Part shown: positions 21,198 through 64,000 of the stretch, one piece after another
Numbering within the stretch: the stretch's first letter is position 1
Layout: every line of letters begins with the position of its first letter
Assembly: GCF_032854445.1 (NCBI RefSeq)
Contig: NC_088299.1
Coordinates: 4,251,001-4,315,000, forward strand
Source: Liolophura sinensis
Taxonomy: Eukaryota > Mollusca > Polyplacophora > Chitonida > Chitonidae
DNA length: 64,000 nucleotides
Direction: 5' to 3'
Position numbers and translations under genes: made by a program
The notes under the pieces: generated by a model
Seen by the model: the letters and a program-made list of their open reading frames with translations, nothing else
Told to the model about the DNA's origin: nothing
Database searches by the model: none

Positions 21198-21550
21198 AAA
21201 GCATTGATAAATATTTGTCTTACATTGGTTTATTCCGAGACTGTATAACTGCTCAATTAGATAAACCACTCTGATCGCCTGATTTTGTGATTTCAAATTT
21301 ATTCATTTAAAAATGGTAATATACGATAAGCGTCACATAACATTACATGGTTTAAGTGTCATAATCGATGCACATTATTAGCGCACGATAAGACGATTAA
21401 AACTATCAAAGTTCCATTAACCAGAATCAACACATTGCCTGTCCAAGACCGGTTTTTAACCCGCACGTCGTATACCCTAGCGATTGAAAGGCATGCACCT
21501 TTAATCACTAGCCTTGAGCACTGGCCGCTCCTCCGTGAGAGATAGGCCTA

Positions 21551-21851
21551 CAAGTAGAGCTGGACCTCGCGTAGGCCTAACGTAAAGGCCTACATGTAGA
21601 GCTGGATCTCACGTAGGCCTAACGTAAAGGCATACATGTAGAGCTGGATCTCACGTAGGCCTAACGTAAAGGCATACATGTAGAGCTGGATCTCACGTAG
21701 GCCTAACGTAAAGGCATACATGTAAAGTTGGATCTCACGCAGGCCTAACGTAAAGGCATACATGTAGAGCTGGATCTCACGTAGCCCTAACGTAATGGCA
21801 TACATGTAGAGCTGGATCTCACGTAGGCCTAACGTAAAGGCATACATGTAC
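21551..21851. repeat. 42-bp minisatellite, about 7 copies
   Basis: The unit includes 'tagagctggatctcacgtag' and 'gcctaacgtaaaggcatacat'. Copies are nearly identical apart from the first and a few base changes. The array lies between the convergent stop codons of the deacetylase (21197) and the sulfotransferase (22031). Because 42 is divisible by 3, the minus strand stays open and encodes a 14-residue period, which is best explained as a by-product of the repeat. Confidence 0.9.
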
Positions 21852-22030
21852 ATCATGCGTTTTCTGAGAGCGAATACGAATGCGCCCCGGCAACACTTTA
21901 ACAAGTCTTATCGGACTTCTTTTATCTGCATTTTCATTATATATTCAGGAGTATTATTAGATTCAGGAGTAATTGGTTACAAAACCGATAAAGGGGACGT
22001 CACTCTAATTTAACAATGACAAAGTAACAG

Positions 22031-24307
22031 CTATCTCCCTTGGTTTTTGCTTGCCTCAAATCGAATGCTCAATTTGGAATCCTTCATTTTGTGAGCAAAC
22101 ATGGCGTCTAACCGCTCCAACTGGCTAACTGTGAACACATTCTTCCAATCTCCGATAATTCCTGAAAATCATAAGACAGTAAAATATCAAACCTATTGAC
22201 AATGATTCTTCCTTATACTTTCTTAATTTCTCACTCATAAATGTAACGGTACACGTATTTAGATTATTGTATTGTACTCGTATTTATTCAACATTAGTGT
22301 AATTAGAAAACCTGTTTACAGAAAATAAAGCATGGCGGGAATAAAGTCACAAAGGGCTTGATCTATCCCGGGAAAGCCCTTATTATTATTATTATTATTT
22401 ATTATTTGACATCGCAGAGTATTTAACCTGTCTAATGACTCAATGTTACCATTTTATTTCAAAAGTCATAGCATCTAGAGCGAAATCGAGATAAGTCCAG
22501 ACAATTTTTTTTTTTTTTTTGGTAATCATAAGAAATGGTTTAAATGTCTCCAACGGAGATGTGGTTTCCTCCCATCATAATGCTGACCGTTGTCGTATAA
22601 GTGACATATTCTTCAGGATGGCGCAAACACCAATGAAATAAACAAATAATAATGGAGATTAGATGTGTGGCAAACGGGAGTCCTTTAATACAACAGTTAT
22701 ACATCTGTTTGATTACCTTTACGGAACATTGTCAGATCTCCATTCCTGTATAATTGTTTTAATTCTTTCTTGGCATGATTATCGTGGTTCTTTTTCATAG
22801 CTGGGAACACAGATCGCTTACAGAGCTGTTCGTAGAAACTTTGGTCTCTGTTCTCGTCAAGAAAATTGCCTAGTCTACGGATTTCTCCCATAAGATCCTG
22901 TAAATGAATGAATGAATGCTTCTGTTTAACGTCGTACTGAACAATTTTTTAAAAACATATGACGACAAGGAGTCATTAGGTGTGTGTACATATACTGCGT
23001 TTTCTTGTGGCAGGGCGAGTCCAATTTTAAAAACTGGTATGACCCGACCCGGCTTTGATCCCGGGCCTCCCGACTTCGGGACGGACGCTCTAACCGTGAG
23101 ATCCTGTAAATGACATTTATACAGTTAATAGAGTTCCAAGTAACACCTCTAAGGGACGTAGAAAGATGATCGATGTATTCAAGGTTTTTTTTTTCAAATC
23201 CACCAACATTTACTGTTACAGTTTTCTTTATAAACCACATAAGAGAAAGAGAAGCATGGTGTGTACCTAGCGGGTGGCTATTGTTGCATGGTTACGTGGA
23301 TGTTGAAAGGCCGCCACGCTCTACATGGCGTGGCATCCATGTAGGCCCCTATCATTCTTCAGGGCGAAATTTGCAATCAGCTGTGAGTTCAAGTCTATCT
23401 CATGCTGGCTTCCTCTCAAGTCATACGTTGGAAGGTCTTCCAGCAATCTGCGGATGGCTGTAGCTCTCCTCCCATCATAATGCTGGCCGCCGTCGTATAA
23501 GTGAAATTTTCTTGAGTGCGGCATAAAACACCAATCAAATAAATAAATAAATAAATATTTTCCCGTGTGCCACAAGTCAGGGAATTAACAATATTGAAAT
23601 GTTATGGTAATTAAAGACATGACCCCCATCCTGGATCCGAGTTTCCCGTGTGATTTATTGTTGTTGTTTCAATACTCATTTACCTAAACAATACCAGTCA
23701 GCTTTATGGGTGGAGGAGACCAAAGTATTCAGGGTTAAACCATCGAGATTTGGCAAGTTACTGACGAACTCTGCCACGTGGAAAGTAAAGATATGCACAT
23801 CATATTGGTGGAAAATCTTTCTCACGAGACAGACGCTGTAATCACTCGGCCCCCGTAGCACGGTCAGGTATGGGTAAAATTTAGACATTGGTGTCATTGA
23901 GGCCTTTTACGATTTTTTTTGTCTCGCGTAAGCAAAAGCTCCATTCGAAATGCTTAAGTCGATCTACCAACCCTGGAACAGTGTTGAAATATAAAATCTG
24001 TGTCACATAAAGCATGATACACGCCTAGAATGGGGTGTTTCAAAGGTTCTTCATGACCGATATGGTTCTTCAAAGAAACTTTTCCTAAAAACAAAGCACT
24101 TTTCCATTGCTATCAACAAGAATATTGCGCTAAGATAAATGTAGCGTAATGTCTTGGTTGATACCCTAACTCATCTAACATTTGGGACAGATATTTTTTT
24201 GTGTTGAAAGTAGAATATTACATTTTTTACCAGTGAAGATATGTGTATGTTGTTCATTGGATGGTATAACCGTGTGAGAAAAGAAGAAACTCGATGCTCC
24301 TGCTACC

Positions 24308-24343
<36 letters not shown>

Positions 24344-27300
24344 TTTAAATGAGCACACCAGGTATCCCAAAAATTAGAAGAAATAGGGTAGCTTTACATA
24401 TGAAAAGGATGGTACGAAGTCAGTCCCGTTCAAAACGCCTTGTAAATGTGTTCTCAAAACTGCTCTAATTTATTTTTTTAAACAATTTTTGCTTAACCAT
24501 AAAACGCATTTGAAATTAGCTAAAATAACGTGACCCCTTCGCATCACATCTAAGTGATGTGACGTCTTAAAGTTTGTCTACGAATGTAAAGAATATAGGT
24601 ACCTTTTGTGAGATCATCTCTGATGAATTACTGTAGGGTTATTCAAGTAATTCTTCATGGATTTTCAGGATCTTAGAATAATATGAAAAACATTTGGAAA
24701 ATTTGGTCTAAAAAAGAAAACCACCCCAGAAAACAATTATTTTAGCGACGTTTCTCAATAAGGAAATAATATGTAAAAATAAAAGAACATTCGTCGTGAT
24801 ACAGTTTTTGTACTGCCTTCCATTTGAGGCACAAACTGTTTTTTTTTTTTACTTTATCTTTTAATTTAACTCTTTAATTTTTTTCTGTAAAAATGAGATT
24901 TTGTGGAAAGTTACTTTACCTCTTTAAGGTCTTCATAATACACAAAGTGGATGGGAATCTCAGGGTGGTCTTCTTTGTACTTTTCCCACATGAGCACGTG
25001 ATCAAACCAACTCCCGCAGTCAACTGAAAAGAAACATTTAATATATATATGGGCCGAGGACGACATTGTGTTTCCGGTTGCTCTAATATGGGGCTCCCCA
25101 TGGCCTCCTGTAAGAATTCCTTATTACAAGTTGATTTATTGAGTTACCAAGCACGTCAGCAAAAATGTCTCTGACCGGTTATGATTAAAGTAAAATCACC
25201 TGCCGTTGGACTGTAGCTGATGGACTTTCTCAAGAGTGACACACAGAATATTTACCCGCAGTGCGAGCTTAGTGAATATGTTAACAGTTCTTTGGATGAC
25301 AGATAAGGTTTCATGAAGTTCACGTAGCTAAGTTTCCTCTTAACTACCATGACACCGTATGTTGTAGAGATATAATAAAGCGCACTTAGCTAAAGGCTAC
25401 TTAACACTAAGTATGCTTGATGAAAACTGCCCAAGTTCCCGAGGATACCGTATATACTAGCGCTCTCACAAGAATCGTCGACCAGCAACAGTTACTGAAA
25501 ACAGGGTAAAAAGAGAATCTGACAAAAATTACTGTCCAGTATATACTGGGATTGAACCAACATACGTATATGTCCGAGCGATAGAGTGAGTGACTGAGGG
25601 CTTAACGTCATACTTTACAATTTTTAAGTCATATAACGACGAGGGTGTCCTTAGAATACCTGTAATGTGCAGGCAGCTTTCCATCGCTCCTTCATATAGT
25701 GCTGCTTCACAGAGACGACTAATGGAAGGCTCAATGATGTTAAACAAGGCAGTGCCTTTACTGATAATAATGAACTTGAATTTGCACTTTAATGCAGCCC
25801 AGTCCTCTTATTTCTCACAATTGTCTTTCGTAAAAGAACCTCTTCTCCTTTATTTTAACTGACCAAATATCCTTTTTACACTTCAATGCAAGAAGCTTTC
25901 GTAAGCACTTTACAGGAGGTTCAGGATTCCTGTATGGCCTAAACTATCTTTTTTCTGTCCTTGGCTTCTCTGAATGCTGGTTTTTCCATGATACTGACAC
26001 TATTTATAACTTTCCCGGCTATGAAAAATTTTCTCTGCAACGTTGTACGCGAAAAGATAGGGATCTAGCACTGTTTATATTCTCTCACACTTAGCCTTGT
26101 CGTCTTAGACATGCTCTATGTTTTATCCATGACTCTGGTTGCTGTGAATATCTGTTTGTCGAGGCCCTGTATGGTGGGAAAACATACCTCCTCGGTTTTT
26201 TTTAACGCTCCCCTGGTAACAATGTTAATGATTTCAACACTAGGCTATTGTCTATCCTAAAAACATGTCAAAGCGAACGGGAAATTGTGTAATTCTGGGA
26301 GATTTCAACATAGATCTGCCAAAATTAGATAACCATCATCCGACAAAATATTTTTTCGAAGTCTTGACCTCACACTACTTTTTTTCTCAAATAATGAAAC
26401 CAACCAGGGTTCAGTCCCGTTGGGCAAATCTAAGAGATAACATTTTTGCAAATTTCCACAACGATCATTTGCTCTCTCGAATTTTATTCACTGATATAAC
26501 GGATCACTTTCCAATCTTTCATATTACAAAGTCAAGCCACACCAAACACTTTGCAAGTAAGCCCATTACATACAAAAATGATAATGAAAAACATAATTGT
26601 ATTACAGTGGTCCAGAACACTGACTGGTCTCCCGTAACAAATGAACAAATTGACGTTGAAACAGCAGCAAGTCTCTTTATTAATAAACTTGATGACATTC
26701 ATAATGAATGTTTCCCTACAAAGAACTAATTAACTAATAAACTAAAAATAGTCTGCACTCCTCACTTCCATTCGTGAAAAAAATCGTCTCTATCTTATGC
26801 AACTTAAGATTAACAGCTACGAGCAGTATCGAACATAGAGGAACAAGCTAAAAAAAAAACGTTGCGCAACTCAAGGAAAAATTATTTTGAGGAATACTTC
26901 AATAAACATAATAATAATATAGAAAACATGGTAACCTCTGAACCAACTAACGGGTAGGGACGAAAAATATAAATTCCCCTCCTCCATCAGCATAAATGGC
27001 ACTGATAAAGACGACACCGAACACATTGCCCAACTATTCAACAAGTACTAGAGTATTTTAATTCTGTAGAATTGACCTCGATTCCCACATCCCAATCACT
27101 GACGGTAATTTTTCATATCACCCTGAGGCTCCTTTAGAAAGTGATTTTAATTTCGCTCCTGTAACACGGACAGATGTTGAACATATCATCCAGATTCTTA
27201 AACCTGCTGCACGTGGACTTGATGGCATTCGGATGTCTATTCTCAAGCTTGTATCCAATTACATCTCTGTAATTGGCTTAGCTTTCAGAAACACGGATTT

Positions 27301-30300
27301 CTACTAGCTCTTCCATTCATTAACTTGGAACTCGGTCTTTTCGACTGTACTGTCCCCAATATGTTAAAGATGAATTCCACACAGCATGTTTCCTTTAATT
27401 CTACAGTAATTATGACTTCATATCACCGAGCTACCCGTGAATAATAATAACTATTGCATCGCAATGATCACAAATCTACCCGGCGCATCGACAGACAACC
27501 ATAGTTCGCTAAACGCCATTTTCAATTCAAGAAAAATTTTGGGTTGAAACATGGAGATGTTCACCATTAAAAAGTCCACTGACAACTAGTATGGAATCAA
27601 CTTTAACTAATGTTTTAATGGGAGGAACAATAAGCATCTATTGCGATAAAAAATGATTTAATTTTGGAAAGAGCAGCCAAGTCCACCCTATAGCTACAGA
27701 ATCACGTAATTCGAAAATTGCGGTCAGAGTGAACACGTCGGTTATGTTGCAATGTAAATGGTAGACCCTCCATAATTTTTGTTGTTCATGTTACGTTCGG
27801 TTTAAAAGACTATACCTGTAAAGTCCGTTTCCGTTGCCTTTATAAGTGACGTAATTCCATTTTCACCGTTGAACCAAGCTCTTGTGACGATTATTGCGAA
27901 CTACAAGCGTGCGTGTGTTAATCGGTGAAGTGTGGTTTATTTACAGGTATGTAGACTGTTAGAAGAGTAATTAGTGTTGGTACGTGACATGAGTGTCTAA
28001 GTTATCGAAACTGTTCAGTCACGATGAAAGATACTTATGAACACATTTTGGTAACTTCGCTCGAGCGCATCGGGCCGCTAGAGGCCATGTGATTGAGTAA
28101 CTTGCGCTAAGCCGATCGATTCTTACTTGTATGAATATTTTAGGGAATAACCTTTTGTTTGACTGTTTCTAAATGAGTTCCATGGGTGAAATGATATGTC
28201 TAAATAACTTCTGTCTGTGGTACGAACTACATCAAGTTGTAAATAGTGTAGAAATGTTGAGCAGATAAAAGTACTTCATCAGTGAAATCCGAGTGTTGTC
28301 ATGGTAAGGAGGACGGAAAGGTCAAATTAGTGCGCATGTCAGTGAATATCGGCTGAAGTGGAAAGGTGGAATATTCAAACACAGGCTAAATTTGTACACA
28401 GGATTAATACCTTGTAGTTTAGCAGTGAACTGAAGCTTTTGTAACAAGCCAAGGTAAATGTATTTCTGTATGTGAACACTGACAATGTTACTTACAATGA
28501 ATACGCTGTTGTGACGAGTATTGCGAGGGACAAGCGTGTGTTTGTTAATCGGTCAACTGTCGTTTTTTTACACTCGATCCTGGGTGCAGTAGTTACATAA
28601 GCTTTATTATTCCTCAAAATATGGTGATATGAATTCAGAATTACTCTCAGATCAAACTGATCTCATAACTAGAATATATATAAGCTCACCCATTCCGTTT
28701 AAGAAAAGCTCCAAAAAGCCGCTCCACTTGCCGTCGTAACCATATAAAGACCGGAAGTTGTAGGTTTGCGTGTAGTAAGACACTGCCACATCTTTAGGGT
28801 TACGAATAATATAGATGATTTTGTGTTTTCCGTCAAAAAGTTTTTTAGATTTTGACAGTATGAAAGGGGGTAAGTGAGTGATAAACACTCGTGGAGAGGC
28901 CTGCGCATTCAGGATATCATCCGCTCTCGCCTCAATCATGTGATCTGGGAGATACAACGAGAAATCGACAGCAGCATCGTTTCTTTTGATTCTGTTTGCC
29001 AGCTCCCAAACCCAGTGATTACCTGCAAATGAAGAGTGTTCAGTAATTAGCCACACTAATTATAATTATACTATATACCTGTTTATGCAGGTACAATTTG
29101 AGTAAAAACTGAAGATTAATATGTTGTTGCTCCAGTGTAGGAAATTCAATTGCTATTGACGTATTCCCAATTTCCAACACGTTAAAATAAGTTTTTCAAG
29201 CAGACATGTGTAAACTGTGCGTAAATATATATATTTTTTAAGGGGTTCAAATGCTGCATTTCTATTGTGAGCTCTAAATCCCACACTGATGGTGTTATAT
29301 ACTCGATTTGTCATTACATCACCTTTTCACGATGTTAACCAGTAGGTAGAAATTTTTGAGACATTCAGTACAAGGAAAAAACTAAAAAAAAGGTCAGCTT
29401 TGAATTTAAACGTTTGAGTGAAATGAAATTATATCTGTTTTAAGTGGTCTATCTGTAGTAATGCTGAGGTCTTTTCCCCTTACGTGCAATTGAATTGGAT
29501 TACTTTTGCCCTTGTAGGTGTCCACGATCTGATTTAATATTGGCTCCACTATGAACGCCAACACTGGTATCAGTGTTCTGAAAGAATATTTTAAGGTCTA
29601 GCTCAAATCTGAGTTCAACGTCTTCATCCTCAGTAACTGAGTATGGATTTTGGTCCTTGAGTTATGTTTAGAGCAGAGACTTAGGAGAGCGTCGATTTTT
29701 ATTTATTTATTTGACGCCGTACTGCCTCAATTTTGGGTGTCACTACAGTTTATTCGCGACGCTGAAGCCTGATAGAGAGTCCCTTTGCATTATTTTAATA
29801 TGATTGTATATAAAATGTGATGATAACACAGATTTCGAGTAATTCTAGTTTAGTGATGTCTAATCACTAACATCAGTGGGTCATTGATTTGCCTAATTCT
29901 GCTTAAGCCATGGTGCCAGGGGACGTATGCGTTTCTGCTTTTTAAGTCCATACATGAACAGTCGTAATAAAGCCGTAAATGAAATAAACTGACTTCAGAG
30001 GTAATACGTGTCACCATTTGCCAACTTTCACTCTGTCGCTGCTCTGGTTTTACTCTCTTTGTCTTACACTGTATTCCTGCATAAACCAGGATTCTGCTGG
30101 TGGTCTAAGCATCCCCGAGGACTGGCGCTTTTTGCATTGTTTTAGTGTAAATTACAACTGACATATTGCTTCGTGATTTCGGGGCCAGTCCATCAGCAGA
30201 AGCCCAATATATGTACGTATACGACTGGCAGGCTTACCGGATTTAGGAAAACCGACGACAACAGCGTCGTCAGGGTGTACCGTTAGATTGGGCAGTGCGT

Positions 30301-30403
30301 CAAAACGGTCGCCGATTCCTGGGAAAGGCTGGGTTAGGTGACCATGATAATCCATGACCTTGAGAATGGCGCCATCTGGATCTGTGATAAACTTCTCCGT
30401 CAT
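22031..30403 (-). CDS. Cytosolic sulfotransferase (SULT family), complete
   Basis: Transfers sulfate from PAPS to small acceptors in the cytosol. The five minus-strand exons are 30403-30238, 29022-28690, 25023-24920, 22897-22717 and 22161-22031 (stop TAG). Phases agree at every junction (1,1,0,1), giving 304 residues, a normal SULT length. Visible motifs: PAPS loop FPKSGNHW (residues ~53-59; SGNHW replaces the vertebrate SGTTW), likely catalytic His105 in ITHLPP, 3'-phosphate site RNPKDVAVSYY with Arg129 and Ser137, GSWFDHVL, YYEDL, and the C-terminal PAPS motif RKGIIGDWKN (~260-269). The chosen ATG (30403) is 17 nt inside an exon that starts at an acceptor (30420), so at least one further upstream exon exists; it may be 5' UTR or coding (see 31725-31984). 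The subfamily and substrate cannot be told from sequence. Confidence 0.92.
22556..22652 (+). repeat. SINE-1 3' fragment in sulfotransferase intron 4
   Basis: Contains the 'cctcccatcataatgctgac' block and a short AAATA-type tail. It lies just 3' of exon 4 on the transcribed (minus) strand. Confidence 0.65.
22908..23098 (-). mobile_element. SINE-2 insertion at sulfotransferase exon 4 acceptor
   Basis: A SINE-2 copy with its tRNA-like head at the 23098 end and an (ATTC)n tail at the 22908 end. It is flanked by a perfect 15-bp target-site duplication, agatcctgtaaatga at 22893-22907 and 23099-23113. Read on the minus strand, that duplication contains the 3' splice site and first five exon bases (ttacag/gatct). 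The SINE tail therefore now supplies the pyrimidine-rich sequence just upstream of the exon 4 acceptor at 22898. Confidence 0.85.
23381..23556 (+). repeat. SINE-1 copy in sulfotransferase intron 3
   Basis: Retains a B box-like 'gagttcaagtct', the body and an (AAATA)n tail at 23538-23558. The A box end is lost. Confidence 0.75.
23690..23870 (-). repeat. Degenerate interspersed repeat
   Basis: The 'tttggcaagttactgacgaa' block resembles one near 7310, and the right end reads like an inverted tRNA-type head. The family is unresolved. Confidence 0.35.
24308..24340. repeat. (TA)n microsatellite
   Basis: A pure TA run of about 16 units in sulfotransferase intron 3. Confidence 0.95.
25580..25745 (-). 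repeat. SINE-2 copy in sulfotransferase intron 2
   Basis: Contains the inverted tail and body: 'gagtgagtgactgagggctt', 'gtcatataacgacgag' and 'agtgctgcttcacagagacg'. The head is truncated. Confidence 0.7.
25880..27330 (+). mobile_element. Decayed non-LTR retrotransposon (LINE), endonuclease to start of RT
   Basis: A 154-codon open stretch at 26265-26729 carries apurinic-endonuclease signatures: VILGDFNIDL, a DNIF block and TDITDHFPIF. Upstream in other frames is the expected VNDFNTRLL.IL phrase. Downstream, with frame breaks, comes a pre-RT block containing PVTRTDVEHI and AARGLDGI. The RT palm is absent and many stops are present, so it cannot be active. Jockey/CR1/L2-type ORF2 is the likely source. 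It lies in sulfotransferase intron 2 on the opposite strand. Confidence 0.75.
27885..28570. repeat. Pair of ~65-bp direct repeats
   Basis: 27885-27947 and 28505-28570 share 'tgacga.tattgcga' and 'caagcgtg.gtgtgttaatcgg'-like sequence about 620 bp apart, inside sulfotransferase intron 2. They could be the ends of a lost element or a local duplication. Confidence 0.5.
29697..29735 (-). repeat. SINE-1 tail fragment
   Basis: Contains 'atttatttatttgacgccgtactg' cut into blocks of the SINE-1 tail. The rest is lost. It lies in sulfotransferase intron 1. Confidence 0.4.
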
Positions 30404-33146: not shown

Positions 33147-33366
33147 TCTGTTAAATTTAACAGAAAGTTAAGTGATGCTAGAATGTATTTAGTTATTAGA
33201 ACACAATGTTATCACATTCAACATAATATCCTGTTAGTCTAATAGAATGGTTTTGTTGAATTATCAGAATATGTGTGTTATATTTAACAGAATGATCTGC
33301 TGCAATAACACAATATATTCTGGCATCATTCAGAGAACTCACATAATTTCTGTTAAATTTAACAGA
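33147..33366. mobile_element. Foldback MITE-like element with palindromic ends
   Basis: The 18-bp self-complementary sequence tctgttaaatttaacaga occurs at 33147-33164 and again at 33349-33366. Beyond it the two ends stay imperfectly inverted-complementary (for example 'gatgctagaat' versus 'attctggcatc'). The element is 220 bp, AT-rich and non-coding. The class is unknown. Confidence 0.7.
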
Positions 33367-33494
33367 AATTAAATTTCTTTGTGTGTTACTTCTTTTCAGG
33401 AAGTGCAGCAAAATATTTTGTCTCGTGAAGATAGAATCATCTAAGGGCAAAGAGAAATCCTTGACAAAGACTGGTCTTTACATTGATATAACTT

Positions 33495-41900: not shown

Positions 41901-44900
41901 CCCCTATAAATTTGTAGGAATTACCCGCCGAACTGAATACTGGCCTCAATGCGTTTGAGACATGGTTCCAGAAGTTCAAATTTAAGCACGTTTGTATTAA
42001 AACTTATGTGCCCCCAATTTCATCTATTTAATTTGATTGTTGTTTAACCATGGTGCCAATTTTAAATCCTAGATCTAAATGTATGCGATTTAATCGCATT
42101 TCAAATTTTGACTTTTTTTGTCAAAAATGTTTTTGTAAGATCGGCCCAATAAAATACAATTGGCACAGCACTGAGTAAAAGCTAAACTTTACACATATAT
42201 GTAAGGATTGTCCAATTCAAATGACAGTAGAGATAGAAAGCTTTTGATTTTACATGCACTGGTCCGCGAGTAGCTCACGTCTGTTGTGATACACGTTCAT
42301 GTGCTAACATATCTACTGTCAAGGCGGTGTTACTTGATAAACATTTATTGTACCCAGCTCTGACATACACTGTTCACGTCCGCATGGCTACTCGAAGGTA
42401 CCAGCCATATAACTTAGTGCGCATGCTCATTACACGGTAAAGATAAAATCTGAAAAATCTTAATATGGAACCAATTGCATATCGTGACATCCCCTTTTCT
42501 CTGAAAAGTAAAATGATCTTCAGCATAATGTCTTTGCCATTATGATCAATTACAATACGTTTAACTTTCTGGGACGGTAGTATTTAATTCCGGAACTTGG
42601 AACAAATGTAGCATATTGTAAATAAACTTAATAAAAAAAATTAACTTTCTGTTCAGGGACAAAAGGTTTATCAGGTATTGTCCAACTGTAAGAGTGAGAG
42701 TTTCATAATTTTTCTAATATTTTTAGAAAATTTCTGGAATACTACTTTATTAATTAATTCCGCTTTAGTGGGTGGCTTTGTGTTCACTTTAACGAGTGCC
42801 CGTTTAACAATCTTGACTTGGCTTTTTATGAATCCATTACTTCTTGGGTAATGTGATGAGTTGGTTTCGTGTTAAAAGCCGTAAGCAGATGCACACTCCT
42901 TGAACAGGTAGGAGTCATAATGAGCACTATCGTCGGATCTAAGGTATTCCCATGTTAGTTTGAGGTATTCTTTGTTTACAAAAGATCTGTTTGAGTACGA
43001 TGACATGCTTGCTGGTACTCTAGCTTGGGTATATCTTTCTGACAAACAGGAATTTGAAGTAGTACTCGGCCAAGAAGAGATTTTCCTCTTCTTCGAAATG
43101 GAACAGATCAGTCCCTGTCGTATGCCAGGCACGCCCATTGTTTCTTCTGGAGAAAGAGGTTAGAGCGCGTCTGCAAGGAGCATCTCTTTGCCAGGTTTGT
43201 ACTTGGTTGTGAAATTGTAAGCTTGTAATCTCAGGCGTTGTAGCCTTGCAGGTGCTGTTCTAGTCGTTGTAGTCTTGTAGGTGCTGCGGTGAGGTGTTTT
43301 AGGTGGATGGACTCTGTTTGTGGTCTGACTTGACTGTGAAATGACTGCCATAAAGGTAAGTGTGGAATCGTTCACATCCATACACACCAGCTAAGAGCTC
43401 ACGTCCGATGTTGGCATGCCTTGTCCCTGGGTCTGTCAATGCTTTGCTAGCGAAGGCTATTGGTCTCCCTTCCTGAATGAGGGCAACGCCTCGTCCCTAT
43501 GTGGAAGCATCTACTTGGAGCGGAATTGTCCCCTTTGACGCGTCGAAGAAGGCCAGGGTGATTTGAGCACTGATGAGTTGTTTGATGTTCTCAAACGATT
43601 TTTGGTGGAAGGCAGTCCATTCAGTCTTTCCTCTAGATTTCTCTCAGAGCTGCTGACTCCGTGCTAAGGTTTCGCATAAAGGGCCCCATGTATGTGGCCA
43701 GTTCAAGGAATGTTTGAAGTTCCTTGATGTCTTGTGGCGGCTTCATCTATCGGATTGCAGATACTTCTGCAGAATTTGGCTTGGCTCTGTTTTGAAAACT
43801 TAATGTTGTCCTGTCTCACGCTTGTTTTCTTGGGGTTGAGCTTAAGGCCTGTGTCCTTACATCTTTGCATGACATTATGAAAGTGGCGGACATGGTCTTC
43901 TGATAAAGATCCGTAGATAATGATGTCGTCCGAGATGCTGATTGCTCCTTCAAAATCTTGGTCAGTTTTTGACTGGAAGACATACTGCTCGACATTCCAA
44001 TATCCACATTTGGCATCTTTTATAGTGAAGAATTTTGCTCCATTTAGTTTTGGTAGAATTTCTGCAAGTGTTGGCGTCACGTGAGAGTTTATCTTCATGG
44101 CTCTGGTAAGATCCCTGGGATCGCTGGACACGTATTTCTTGGCTTTTCAGGAAGATTCATACCACAATACTTATATGTAATATCATTATGTGGCTTTGAA
44201 TATTTCATGGAGAGCACATTTTGGTTGTCGGCGAGGCGATCCATGTGAGATATTGTTGCTTCATAAGTTCATGCAATATCCATTTGTTTAAACTGGTGCA
44301 GTTGATGTCTGGCCAGGCGATGAATTACTTTCGGTGCGAGGTGCGTTACAAATTTTTCCCACATTTCTTCCAGGTCTGTTTTATCTTCTTCAGATTTCCA
44401 GGTGAAACGGTTATACAGGTCTAATCCAGTTCTGCCTATCCATAACAGTGTGCATGAAACCTTTTTATCACCAGATTTCTCCGCGTACGAGCCTTTGGAA
44501 ATTAATTCACAGAACTGTTTATATCTTGCTAGTTCATCCGGTAAATCATCGGTTTCCCAGTTCACTGGTGGAGGTGTAAGCCCTATTGCTGTAGCCATAC
44601 TTTCTCTCAATTTTCCGTACTGAATTTCTGGGCTGTTGTTTTTTTTCCGAATTGACAGAGATTTTTCTCCCGACCTTCTCCAATGTACACAAAATGCTGC
44701 AATGCGAGGAGTTCGTATCTGCACCCTCTATAATATAGGGCAACAGACATTTTACTCCGCCAGTAACATTGTGCAACAGTTAGGAGATTATGCCTACGCA
44801 TTACGTCACACTTGGCTGTTGCAGTTCGGCTGATACTGCGCCTGTCAGAAGATTGTCTCTGTACGTGATGCCCTGGAACTCATTACACATCGTTGCACAA

Positions 44901-51793: not shown

Positions 51794-54700
51794 CAAATGA
51801 CATCAAACAAAATATGTTAACATTAAAAAGTACCCTGTTTACAGCCCTCTGTTTGTAGATGTGATGATTTAATGACAGTGTATCTCTTTGATCTCAGGTT
51901 GGCTCAGATGTTGTGAGACCAGGTTCTGGCAAACAACACAAGGCACACTCTGCACCAAAGACCACAGGTAACATGCTACACTTAGCTGCAATGTTAAGTA
52001 TGAATAATTTAAATAAATTAAATTTCAATTATATTTATTCAGATTTTTTCAGAAAGTATTCAGGTTTAAATGTTGTCATTGCCAATACATGTTTGCCAGT
52101 GCATTTATAAACCTCCATCAGAATACTTCAGGAAATGGTTCTTGTCACTATGTGTAGAGCATTGTGAGCAGCCTAGACAACAGCACTCTGGTAAAGATGA
52201 GCGAAACCGACAAACCCCTGGTCAGAGAGAGCAGCAGACACCTGGTCAGAGAGAGCAGCAGACACCTGGTCATAGAGAACAGCAGACACCTGGTCAGAGA
52301 GAGCAGCAGACACCTGGTCAGAGAGAACAGCAGACACCTAGTCAGAGAGAACAGCAGACACCTAGTCAACAAGACAGACAGACGTCTAGTCACCGAGAAC
52401 AGCAAACCCCTGGTCAACAAGACCGACAAATGCCTGGTCACCGCAGACGGAAGAATCATAACAAGAATGAGAGGAAGGTGGGTACCATAATTAGTCCCCT
52501 ATAATGTCCGGAGAGGACTATAGGTTAACGTCTGTCAGTACATCAGTCTGTCATGAATCATTTTTTCGCCCTGTGTGTATGTATGCTTACGTTCCAAACT
52601 TAGAGAATTCATGACATTTTTACTGTTGTGTTATTGCCAGCAACTTGCAGATGGTTGTGGGTTCCCCTGGGCTCTGCGTGATTTCCTCCCACCATAATGC
52701 TGGCCGTTGTTGTATAAGTGAAATATTCTTGAGTACGGCATAAAACACTAATCAAGTAAATAAATAAATAAATAAATACTGTTGTGTTATTAAAGTTAGA
52801 TGTATATTTTGACATGACACTGAAGTTTGTTTGTTTCCTGTATGTTGTTTTTATGTGTGAAGGCATTGGGGAAGTACAATTTCATTGTAAATTGACTAGA
52901 GTTACCTTCAATAAATAAAGATATTACTATATGAGGTAGAATACATTGAAATGTGAGTCTGTGAAGTAACAAAAGTATAAATATGCCCAATCACCTGTTG
53001 ATTTCTGATTTCAGCAAATGTTCACACCACACTGGACCAGGGAAATGGTGTCTGAGGGGCTTAAGAAAGGATTTCTTGTGGAGGTTTGCTGTTTGGAAAT
53101 TTGTCATTTGTTTTTCTCATAACATCTCCAGAGACTTGAGTAAGAATTTTTGAATTAAATCTGTTGGTTTAAAACCCATGACATCCGTAGGTTGCTGGCA
53201 GACCTTCCCATGTACAGCCGAAGAGGACTGTTTGTATTGATAGAGAATAGATCTTAATGGAAATGACCTCTAAAAATTGAAGGAGCCATCACTAAATAGA
53301 CCACTTAAAACTATGCGTAAATATACTTTGAGTTATTTTTTTAGATTTTTGTGAAAAGGGTTAAAAGAGTTCTGAATTGTAAGGTGGGCTTTAAGGAGTA
53401 TACTATCAAAGGTTAGGAACTCTGATGTCACAGGAAGTTTTTCCAACTCTAATCAAGACACTGAATGTTGGAATAACTCTTTTTACCCGTAAGTAAAAGA
53501 TTACTGAAATAATGTTCCCAAAAATTCCTTCCTTTTGCTGAACGTCAAGAAAAAAAGGTGATGTGACATCAGAGTTGCTAGATACCGTCAGTATGGCTTA
53601 TAAAGCCCACCATAGTATTCAAATATTTGAATGCCTTTTAACACTCTTTAAAAAAATCTTGAGAAATAAATGAAAGTATTTTTACACGTAATTTTCAGTT
53701 GTCTGTATGATGAACCTTACATCATATTTTAGCTCCCTTTTATTTTACCATGGTATTAATACATGAATATCAAAATCATTCTGTGAAATATAACTGTAAA
53801 ATGACACCAAAAAATTTTTTAAGATCAAACATTCTCATAAAATCTTACTTTTGGTGCTGAAACAATTTTTCACAATTGGATATCATACTACCTTACAAAC
53901 AAACCTCAATACACCTTTTAAGATTGATAGAAAGGTCAGACTTTATTTAAGTAATTAACCCATAGTAAGAGGTTTAAAACTGTACTTGTGTCCAGTGATC
54001 AGTTGATCAGTGTGTGGTATTTATTTATTTTATTGGTGTTTTATGCCGTAATTAATATTTCACTTACATGACGGTGTCCAGCATTATTGTGGGAGGAAAC
54101 GGGGCAGGTCCTGAGGGGAAACCCATGATCATCCGCAGGTTGCTGACTGACCTTCCCATTTATGGACAGAGAAGAAGCCACCATGAGCTGGACTTGAACT
54201 TGCATTATTCTTTGACTGAGTTAACAAGATTAAACCTAGGATTTAAACATCAGATAATTTTAATGTGAAATTCAGTATACTGAATATTCCATATATTTGG
54301 ATTCTGTTATTTATTCAGATTCTACATTATTATACAGTGTACATGTTTTTATATTTTCAGGGTACGATTCGGATCAATCCCAAAAACTATGAGGATGCAT
54401 ATATCCCAGGCCCTGTGAGTTGTTTTAAAGTCTAGACGATGTCATTTATACAGTAGTTTTAGTAGCAATACAAGTATTAGTTAGTACTACTGTTGCAGTC
54501 CTAGATATTGACGATAGTCATTTAATCAATATAGATGAACTATGAAACTCAAAAACATAATATAGCTCAAATATGTCCATAGACTGAATTCATACTAACA
54601 TTTTTATAGGAAGTTGGAAAACATCCACTTTCATGTGGAAAGTTAAAGTGTGTATTAATTGAAGTACATGTTAAGGGTCATTAACAGAATTTCAGTCTCC

Positions 54701-57700
54701 GGCCGTGCATGGGAAAGTTTTCCAGCTACCTGCGGATGGTCGTGGGTTTCCCCCCAGGCACTGCCTGCTTTCCACCCACCATAATGCTGGCCACTGTCGT
54801 ATAAGTGAAATATTCTAGAGTACGGCGTAAAACACCAATCAAATAAATAAATATAGAATTTCAGACTTTTCATGCCAGATACATAGATGTTCATTCTCTA
54901 TCAAAGATTCTTGTGTTTGGCTTTCTTTACGTGTGATTTTTTTGTACATTCATTGATGCTTTCAGGATGGAATTTCAGACATCTACATCAGTGGTTTTGC
55001 CAACAGAAACCGGGCAATGAATGGAGACACTGTGGCAGTGTTGGTGAATGGTAGACAAGACTGGAGGGTAACAACAGCTACAGTATTTTTACACCCTTTG
55101 ATGATGATGATGACAAAATATAAACTCGTTAAGCATGAAGGGGATAGTGCAACGACTGGTTGACCTGTATCGGTATAATGGCTTGGGTGTGACAGCTTAT
55201 TTGCCTTCAGTAAGGCATCTCAGTGAAGCAGCACTAGATAAAAGAACGATGGAAATCTGTCCTGCAACAAGGAGGCCCATTCTAAGGATTCCTTCGTTGT
55301 CATATGACTGAAAAATTGTTAAGTACAATGTTAAACCCCAAGCACTCACTCACTCAAAATATAAACACGACTAGATGTATTTTGTTGAAAACCTCATACA
55401 GTAATTCTTCGACCTTTTAGCACTTTTATTCAGTGGAAATTATGTATGCAGTTGTTCTTAAAATGATGCTAAACTAATACATTTGTGTCTCTAAAGATGC
55501 AAGCTTCATTAAACTGTGCTAAGTATTTCTCTACACCTCATAGTTGTCAGAATGTTTCAAAACATTGGTTGTAGAAGTGGTTTATAAGGTTGAAGATTTA
55601 GGTAGTCTTCATCTTTGGCTTTGTCTTGATGTTTAATCTTTGTTAAATTCTTGATTACAGCACCAATCAAGTAAATCAGCCTTTATGGCCGTTATGTAAA
55701 TCTTTATACCCACAAATTATCTGGGGTAAAATATGGATGTTCACTCCCAGATTGCAGAAGTTTAACTTCTTACTTGTTTGAAACAGAAGCTTGTGACACT
55801 AACTATAGGGAACCGCTAGCCTTTGCCCTACAACGGCCACAAGGCTGCAGGGCTCAGCTTGGTTCACACATTGTCACACACCACAGCATGTCATACCTGG
55901 AACCGTGTAACGGGAACCCAGACAATTTTTAAATTGGCATTTTAAATTGTTACCAACCGTTGTTACCATTCAGTATAATTCAAGCGCTTTTTCTTGTTGC
56001 CGGTGATACTTTTTTAAAACACCGAAGATTAGCTTGATTGTTAGTGTCACTGACGTTGAGTGACAGACTGTTGTCACCAGTGCAAACACGCAATTGACTG
56101 GCCCGACGGCATAGATCCTTGTGTTGTAGCTGGTGTCGCTCAATTTGGCTATAAAAATTTATAGTCTGTTAACTGCGAAACTCTACCAAAACTGTGCAGG
56201 GCTTTTCAATACATGATCCCAGCAGGGATTCATGGCATGACGTCACAAGGCCAGGGCTGCGTGGTCGACGAGATAGGCAGAAGGTCCAACTTTAATGGGT
56301 TTTTTTAAATGGAACTATTCAACATAGTATTTTTGTAAATGCAGTTTACAGACTAACATAGCATAAATATTGTCTTTAGGGAACATTTAGTTTGAAAATA
56401 AAGTCTTCAAGGTTCTGCTATAAGCAGTATGTAATTCTTACTTTGTTGTTTGGATGTTTACAGGTGTTTCTTGACAGCTTTGAGGAATATGAAGCCCAGT
56501 TAGAGGCACAGATGAAGACTCTCAGTCTAGCACAGACAGACCTAAATTCTGCCAAAAATGCTTCAGTGCTACCAGAGAGTATGGATTATAAATTACTATG
56601 TGATTCAAGAGAAGAATCCATTCAGCATTCAAGTAGCCAGTCTAAAACTGCCTGCTCTGGAACTTCCCAGTCTGAAAAAACATCACAGAGAAATCCATTA
56701 GTACAACTTACTAGTGATGAAATGACAACGAAATTAAGTGCAGATCAAGCAGACTTGTCACCAATCCCTAACTGTCATGATAAGCAGGATTCTGCGCAGG
56801 CAGCTGGATCCAAACAGAAACAGGGAACTCATCGTAAAGGAAACAAAACTCCCATCAAAGTACATCAGAGTAAGACACCAGGGTCCAAAGGAAGGTACAC
56901 ATCCGTCAAGGATCTGTTGTCAGCAAACGGCTGCAGTCCTGTCGCTAAGAAACTCTTCAGTGAGAGCAAGAATGAAGGAGAGAAAGCACAAGGAGAGTCT
57001 GAAATGTCGCAGTTCGTACAGAAAACTGGAACGGTGAAGAAAACATTTTTGTCACAGGAAGTCATGTTTAAATTTAAATTTCCAAGGGCTCCTTTACAAA
57101 ATGATCTCTTTAGTGTGTCTCATTCCTGGGGATTTGTGTAACTTGCAAGTAGTCCTATAATAAAGGTGCCCTGTGTGTGTAGCTGTCAAAACGATTGTGA
57201 TTGTATTTTTCCTTGTGTGGTAGCATGTGCATACAGAATCCCTGGCAATAGGGTTTTTTTTACAACAGCAAAGCCCCATTGAGGTTTGATGTTGCCACTT
57301 TATGGGAGGGCAGGGTGAAAACTCAAAAGGCACGCCATGAATTGGGGTACACGTAAGAGGTTTGAATCCGTCTCTCGTGTCATTTAAACATTTTACTGTA
57401 AAGCTGGACAAATGGTGTGTTGTTGAAACTCGTTCCATTGACGGAGGCATGTTTGTTGATTTTCATTTCTTTATTATTCCATTCTAATGGTAAAACATCT
57501 GGGCTGCACTGTTTCTTGGTTTCATTTTTCTCATTTCATATGGTAGAAATCATAATTTGTTTAAAATTGTTCACAAAATTTATACCTGTAAATATTTTGT
57601 TTTGAATTCTCTGTGGCACATACTCTATTTCAGGTGGTGGCTGTGACAGAGTACAAGCATTCGCGGGCGTGTTCCGGCCATATCAAGCCTATGTCAGATA

Positions 57701-63610: not shown

Positions 63611-64000
63611 TGATTCAAGGTTCTGCTTTGCACTAGTGCCATGTCATAGAATTAAATTTACACATACATGTAGAACATCTCTGTTGTATTAGCAGTGATT
63701 CAAGGTTCTGCTTTGCACTAGTGCCATGTCACAGAATTAAATTTACGCATACATGTAGTACATCTCTGTTGTATTAGCAGTGATTCAAGGTTCTGCTTTG
63801 CACTAGTGCCATGTCATAGAATTAAATTTACGCATACATGTAGTACATCTCTGTTGTATTAGCATTGATTCAAGGTTCTGCTTCGCACTAGTGCCATGTC
63901 ACAGAATTAAATTTACACATACATGTAGTACATCTCTGTTGTATTAGCAGTGATTCAAGGTTCTGCTTCGCACTAGTGCCATGTCACAGAATTAAATTTA
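63611..64000. repeat. 85-bp tandem repeat, at least 4.6 copies
   Basis: Units begin 'tgattcaaggttctgc' at 63611, 63696, 63781, 63866 and 63951, with few differences between copies. The array continues past the window edge within the DIS3L2 intron after exon 16. Confidence 0.95.

Follow-up and report, generated by a model that had tools for sequence, protein, structure and literature searches.

Which of two identical splice acceptors serves an exon after a retrotransposed element has copied one of them? The question is raised by a sulfotransferase gene in the 64,000-nucleotide stretch of Liolophura sinensis DNA analysed here (the window), in which a SINE landed 10 bp upstream of the exon 4 acceptor. 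Five minus-strand exons join to an open frame of 915 nt (304 amino acids), and the four introns are all GT-AG:

30238..30403, minus strand: sulfotransferase exon 1 (from the ATG), gene model
28690..29022, minus strand: sulfotransferase exon 2, gene model
24920..25023, minus strand: sulfotransferase exon 3, gene model
22717..22897, minus strand: sulfotransferase exon 4 (181 nt), gene model
22031..22161, minus strand: sulfotransferase exon 5 (to the stop), gene model

The spliced protein matched Pfam Sulfotransfer_1 (PF00685) with an E value of 2.6e-54 over profile positions 1-254 of 255, that is, over the full length of the domain, and 37 distinct solved sequences (chains) at E 1e-20 or better (best E 3.2e-43). 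Aligned to two solved SULTs, it contained the PKSG loop, the THLP histidine, RKGxxGDWK and KxxxTVxxxE, the motifs of cytosolic sulfotransferases (SULT), the histidine being the catalytic one. In the two alignments shown, of the 37 solved sequences, the exon 3/4 junction was gap-free (EDLKE/DLMGEI versus EDMKE/DLRREI). An exon length of 181 nt, as in human SULT1, may be a family-wide constant. Given the gap-free junction and the open frame, the gene model requires the acceptor next to the exon, with exon 4 starting at 22897; a true acceptor elsewhere is opposed by the same two alignments. That the gene is already broken was ruled out at the level of the sequence by the open frame, the Pfam match and the solved relatives. 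A tblastn search of the window for paralogues yielded, beyond the gene's own exons, three weak matches only (E 0.26, 7.1 and 7.2), and paralogues in the window were therefore dropped as stand-ins for an empty site. A 21-base motif of the SINE family had 0 exact matches in viral contigs and 0 in bacterial and archaeal genome contigs, and of 35 stretches fitting peptide patterns from exons 4-5, none coded for a relative; collections of viruses, bacteria and archaea have no bearing on an empty site in this species.

Other repeat-like sequences lie in the gene and elsewhere in the window. Intron 2 contains a plus-strand open frame (26244-26729) resembling, by eye, a piece of a LINE endonuclease, and an open frame at 43703-44146 on the minus strand resembles a piece of a reverse transcriptase, also by eye. 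Fragments of another repeat, which ends in (AAAT/TTTA)n, flank exon 4 (22550-22645 in intron 4 and 23300-23560 in intron 3, minus strand, by eye), and related strings recur across the window.

The features at the intron 3/exon 4 boundary are the following:

22893..22907, minus strand: exon-side copy of a 15-bp target-site duplication, made up of 10 intron bases TCATTTACAG and the first five exon bases GATCT
22898..22899, minus strand: exon-side acceptor AG, predicted to be the productive one (exon 4 start 22897)
22908..23098, minus strand: SINE between the duplications, 191 nt, in sense to the gene, with a tRNA-like head (by eye), a conserved 3' part and a CATTC tail, five tail bases overlapping the duplication
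23099..23113, minus strand: upstream copy of the 15-bp duplication, carrying the other, identical acceptor (AG 23105-23104)
23104..23105, minus strand: upstream acceptor AG, the putative decoy (exon from 23103; use adds 206 nt)

The 15-nt sequence AGATCCTGTAAATGA (plus-strand letters) was the longest run common to the two compared stretches, at 22893-22907 and 23099-23113. Read on the minus strand, both copies are TCATTTACAGGATCT, with 10 intron bases ending in CAG followed by five exon bases. They are spaced by 206 nt with 191 nt between them. The two acceptors thus have the same letters from -10 to +5, and their differences are confined to the context further upstream and downstream. Five bases of the duplication (TCATT) can be assigned equally well to the SINE tail, so that the boundary is ambiguous by five bases. 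The duplication is identical at 15 of 15 positions, its length lies within the range of about 7-20 bp expected for SINEs, and the acceptor lies inside it, as in the merle allele of dogs discussed below. The preliminary description had claimed a SINE flanked by a perfect 15-bp duplication that holds the exon 4 acceptor and the first exon bases, and hence two copies of the acceptor 206 bp apart with the SINE between them. All of this was borne out by the letters, the computed spacing and the gene model. Removing the SINE and one duplication copy in silico, so that the flanks meet, leaves one canonical acceptor with the exon behind it, which would represent the ancestral empty site.

The window was scanned for exact direct repeats of at least 13 nt, 80-450 bp apart, under a simple low-complexity filter. 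This gave 47 repeats, or 33 after omission of those starting in the tandem arrays at 21500-21920 and 52100-52500. Of the 33, 27 fell into two other tandem arrays, at 45.8 kb and at 63.6-64 kb, leaving six elsewhere, including the pair at 22893/23099. Random pairs of 30-bp stretches at the same spacing, with the window's tandem arrays left unmasked, had a common run of at least 15 nt in 6 of 5000 cases. The scan and the random-pair test together ruled out a chance or low-complexity repeat as the source of the 15-bp pair. It is likewise hardly credible that the repeat is a product of chance or of assembly: the sequence comes from a single assembly, but the perfect 15-bp repeat is situated exactly at both ends of the SINE, and the tail is correctly placed.

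The tandem arrays of the window have features of their own. The array at 21560-21900 consists of 42-bp units, a multiple of three, and is open over 105 codons on the minus strand; the tandem-repeat stretch at 52070-52504 has several frames open on both strands (144, 116 and 110 amino acids); and the array at 63611-64000, with units of ~85 bp, reaches the end of the window. At 33147-33368, a nearly palindromic 20-bp exact repeat TCTGTTAAATTTAACAGAAA occurs twice, 202 bp apart, perhaps as the ends of a small DNA element.

The 3' part of the SINE recurs at four other places in the window (BLAST; 76.6 to 82.2% alike). The aligned copies share their 3' end and carry tails of CATTC or CACTC units; a CATT-type tail is also found in the copy at 9.6 kb. 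The family thus has repeated copies with a common 3' part and a simple-repeat tail. The closest sister copy in the window is 82% alike over 118 positions, a value that compares two copies and not a copy with a consensus, and dating of the insertion by sister copies was dropped. The tail at exon 4 is short, about four units. The head resembles, by eye, a tRNA-derived promoter region with box A/B likeness. ARAGORN found 0 tRNAs, Rfam gave 0 matches at the gathering score, and with up to three mismatches allowed the head motif has a single occurrence in the window. The name SINE is therefore based on three features: the duplication, the tail and a 3' part that recurs. Upstream of the common 3' part, the exon 4 copy matches none of the other copies in the window, and it may therefore be an internally shortened copy or belong to a different subfamily.

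The duplication and the tail point to movement by target-primed reverse transcription, a process that is described in PMC3219598. By this route, the SINE would have inserted in sense orientation just upstream of the acceptor of exon 4, so that the 15 bp carrying this acceptor were duplicated. The duplicated target begins with TCATT, letters that are also in the tail, which matches the expectation that the cut strand primes on the tail RNA and may have done so here. At six other 3' ends of the family in the window, exact duplications of at least 9 nt were sought up to 520 bases upstream and up to 60 bases downstream. A recognisable one was present at one of them, a 12-bp exact duplication CAAAATATAAAC (55114-55125 and 55355-55366) around a copy ~230 bp long, and no such duplication was found at the other five. 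With one duplication in six, the match between tail and target at exon 4 is not extendable to a rule for the family.

We computed the product of each splice choice, for which two further features are needed:

22870..22872, minus strand: premature stop on use of the upstream acceptor, 153 nt before the last junction (end of exon 4)
22918..22921, minus strand: two additional AGs at the end of the SINE that might act as acceptors, with exon starts at 22921 and 22918, and would add 24 or 21 nt in frame

Splicing to the exon-side acceptor (22897) gives the 181-base exon 4 and the normal protein. Splicing to the upstream acceptor (23103) gives an exon of 387 bases, a frameshift and a stop at residue 279 (22872-22870), so that the earlier claim of 206 added nucleotides and a shifted frame is correct. 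In the decoy product, the residues normally encoded by exons 4 and 5 would be missing, including RKGxxGDWK. In vertebrates, the rule for nonsense-mediated decay is a distance of 50-55 bases from the last junction, and 153 is far enough. Skipping of exon 4 leads to a frameshift with a stop at residue 219.

Three computed choices other than the exon-side acceptor keep the frame and reach the normal stop. Exon starts at 22921 or 22918 would add eight or seven residues. A 9-base microexon (23103-23095) that uses GTTAGA in the SINE head as its donor and is joined to 22897 would add three. The donor of the microexon, ACGGTTAGA, fits the donor consensus at six of nine positions, but it has a T at +3, comparable matches are common by chance, and the acceptor context TTAAACAG is pyrimidine-poor. 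We regard an in-frame compromise of any of these kinds as very improbable. If the microexon were real, the body of the SINE would be an intron-like unit.

The choice between the two duplicated acceptors depends on what lies upstream of each:

23124..23130, minus strand: candidate ancestral branch site TATTAAC, its A (23125) lying 22 nt ahead of the exon start of the upstream acceptor (from the sequence and a yUnAy scan)
22913..22927, minus strand: SINE-derived branch-site candidates for the exon-side acceptor, TNA at -30/-29 (22927/22926) and TTCAT with its A at -16 (22913)

TATTAAC, one letter off the textbook branch site TACTAAC, is the only near-consensus branch site at the usual distance, and it sits before the upstream acceptor. 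The upstream AG is the first AG past it, and a first-AG rule from TATTAAC therefore favours the decoy. The 206-nt insert contains 12 AGs, the exon-side AG counted. Upstream of the exon-side acceptor, TNA motifs occur between -14 and -50 at -41, -30, -29 and -16, and in a scan of 60 bases yUnAy matches were confined to -16 and positions closer to the acceptor. The candidates lent by the SINE are weak, those at -30/-29 not being yUnAy and TTCAT at -16 being close to the acceptor. Use of a SINE-lent branch point is nevertheless possible, because the AGs at -25 and -22, which follow the -30/-29 candidates by only 4-8 bases, might be skipped.

The pyrimidine share at -20 to -4 is 0.71 for the exon-side acceptor and 0.53 for the upstream one, compared with 0.65, 0.71 and 0.71 for the other three acceptors of the gene. 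Among the 208 YAG sites of the gene's introns, a set that contains the gene's own acceptors, a share of at least 0.70 is found at 7.2% and one of at least 0.52 at 45%. The tract of the exon-side acceptor is interrupted by an A at every fourth base, and no pyrimidine run in it exceeds 3, less than at any of the other four acceptors (upstream acceptor 4; others 6, 9 and 5). The preliminary description had assigned the (ATTC)n tail to the proximal acceptor as its pyrimidine tract, which holds. It had put this acceptor at 22898 and omitted the branch point; the AG occupies 22899-22898, and the first exon base is 22897.

Since TATTAAC stays with the upstream decoy, productive splicing at the exon side has to rely on the SINE for its branch point as well as its pyrimidine tract, and the sequence does not make it evident that the gene is still spliced productively. 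We nevertheless favour the reading, at a probability of about 0.6, that the SINE duplicated the acceptor and that the exon-side site is the main one, because the coding sequence is intact. The upstream acceptor would have kept the ancestral branch site, and the exon-side acceptor would have kept the exon and gained the 3' end of the SINE as its new upstream context. The latter acceptor would mainly be used, with branch point and pyrimidine tract provided by the SINE, and the upstream acceptor would act as a decoy with an early-stop product.

The weight of the open frame was estimated by a rough neutral simulation with indels, for which indel rate and effect were assumed. A frame of the gene's length stayed open with a probability of 0.31, 0.10 and 0.004 at 1%, 2% and 5% substitutions, and a free 15-base copy remained unchanged with a probability of 0.86, 0.74 and 0.46. 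The open frame is moderate evidence, short of proof, that the gene is probably still used. It is no more than moderate because the insertion may be young, and a young insertion leaves the frame intact anyway.

A mainly unproductive allele is a serious rival to exon-side use, although we consider it clearly the less probable of the two. The insertion would be recent, the sequenced haplotype would happen to carry it, and the allele would be largely unproductive or hypomorphic, with the ancestral branch site joined to the upstream AG, or exon 4 skipped, to give early-stop messages. The TATTAAC candidate at -22 does remain with the upstream AG, and the 15 of 15 identical positions of the duplication are consistent with youth. 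Moreover, insertions in NF1 and dog FAM161A caused exon skipping. In NF1, four of 14 Alu insertions hit a 3' splice site and made the exon skip, and one of these four was in sense and sat at the AG (PMC3219598); the dog FAM161A SINE lay 15 bp upstream of an acceptor, where the authors blamed a displaced branch point. These cases and the dog HCRTR2 SINE are likewise retrotransposed elements that lie at an acceptor or no more than tens of bases away. Unlike NF1 and FAM161A, where skipping was seen in RNA, the predicted gene model here is intact and the sense-strand tail is pyrimidine-rich. The intact frame with its recognisable active-site motifs and the higher pyrimidine share at the exon-side acceptor speak against an unproductive allele and for mainly exon-side use.

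The event type is already known, and dog merle PMEL is a close precedent. According to PMC7349775, the merle SINE is located at the PMEL intron 10/exon 11 boundary with a 15-bp duplication in which the original acceptor lies; whether this acceptor or a cryptic one is chosen depends on how long the tail of the SINE is. PMC3976383 places the insertion nine bp upstream of the acceptor. Both loci thus combine a boundary SINE, an acceptor-holding 15-bp duplication and two acceptors, the insertion lying nine bp upstream there and ten here. As described, however, the merle SINE is in reverse orientation, its poly(T) lies away from the exon-side acceptor, and its cryptic acceptor is inside the element, whereas the SINE here, on the evidence of its sequence, is in sense and its short (ATTC)n tail immediately precedes the exon-side acceptor.

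By analogy with the merle tail-length effect, both acceptors might be used, with their ratio setting the amount of enzyme. The upstream acceptor combines a good branch site with a weak tract and the downstream one a weak branch site with a higher pyrimidine share, as such dual use would predict, but the tail here is short, at about four units. We find dual use rather unlikely and retain predominantly exon-side splicing.

Introners, which are introns made by elements, offer a further parallel: according to PMC9860276, a target duplication can supply a splice site to a new intron, as happens in some of them. The splice site comes from the target-site duplication in both cases; here, however, an existing intron is lengthened and no new intron is seen. 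Judged from its sequence, the locus adds as its own points the sense orientation, a pyrimidine-rich tail against the putatively productive acceptor and two acceptors that are equal over 15 bases. We found no earlier report from a mollusc in the open-licence literature searched.

Because the two acceptors match from -10 to +5 and differ only further up and down, the locus offers a natural experiment that sets branch site against pyrimidine tract when an acceptor is chosen. Should the exon-side site be the one in use, the SINE would have supplied a full working splice-acceptor context. As a speculation that we consider doubtful, the 3' end of this SINE might be a ready-made acceptor module, its (ATTC)n tail combining a pyrimidine tract with repeated yUnAy branch sites (TTCAT). 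Priming on tail-like, pyrimidine-rich targets would then direct sense insertions of these SINEs, and of relatives with (ACTC)n tails, to acceptors, and the insertions would restore what they had destroyed. Were this true, the lineage would tolerate sense insertions at acceptors, in contrast to insertions of Alu or L1 with their poly(A) tails, and intron ends would repeatedly turn over through acceptor duplications, events that can be counted. If there are many such sites in genomes with pyrimidine-tailed SINEs, intron ends would turn over by a simple, readable process.
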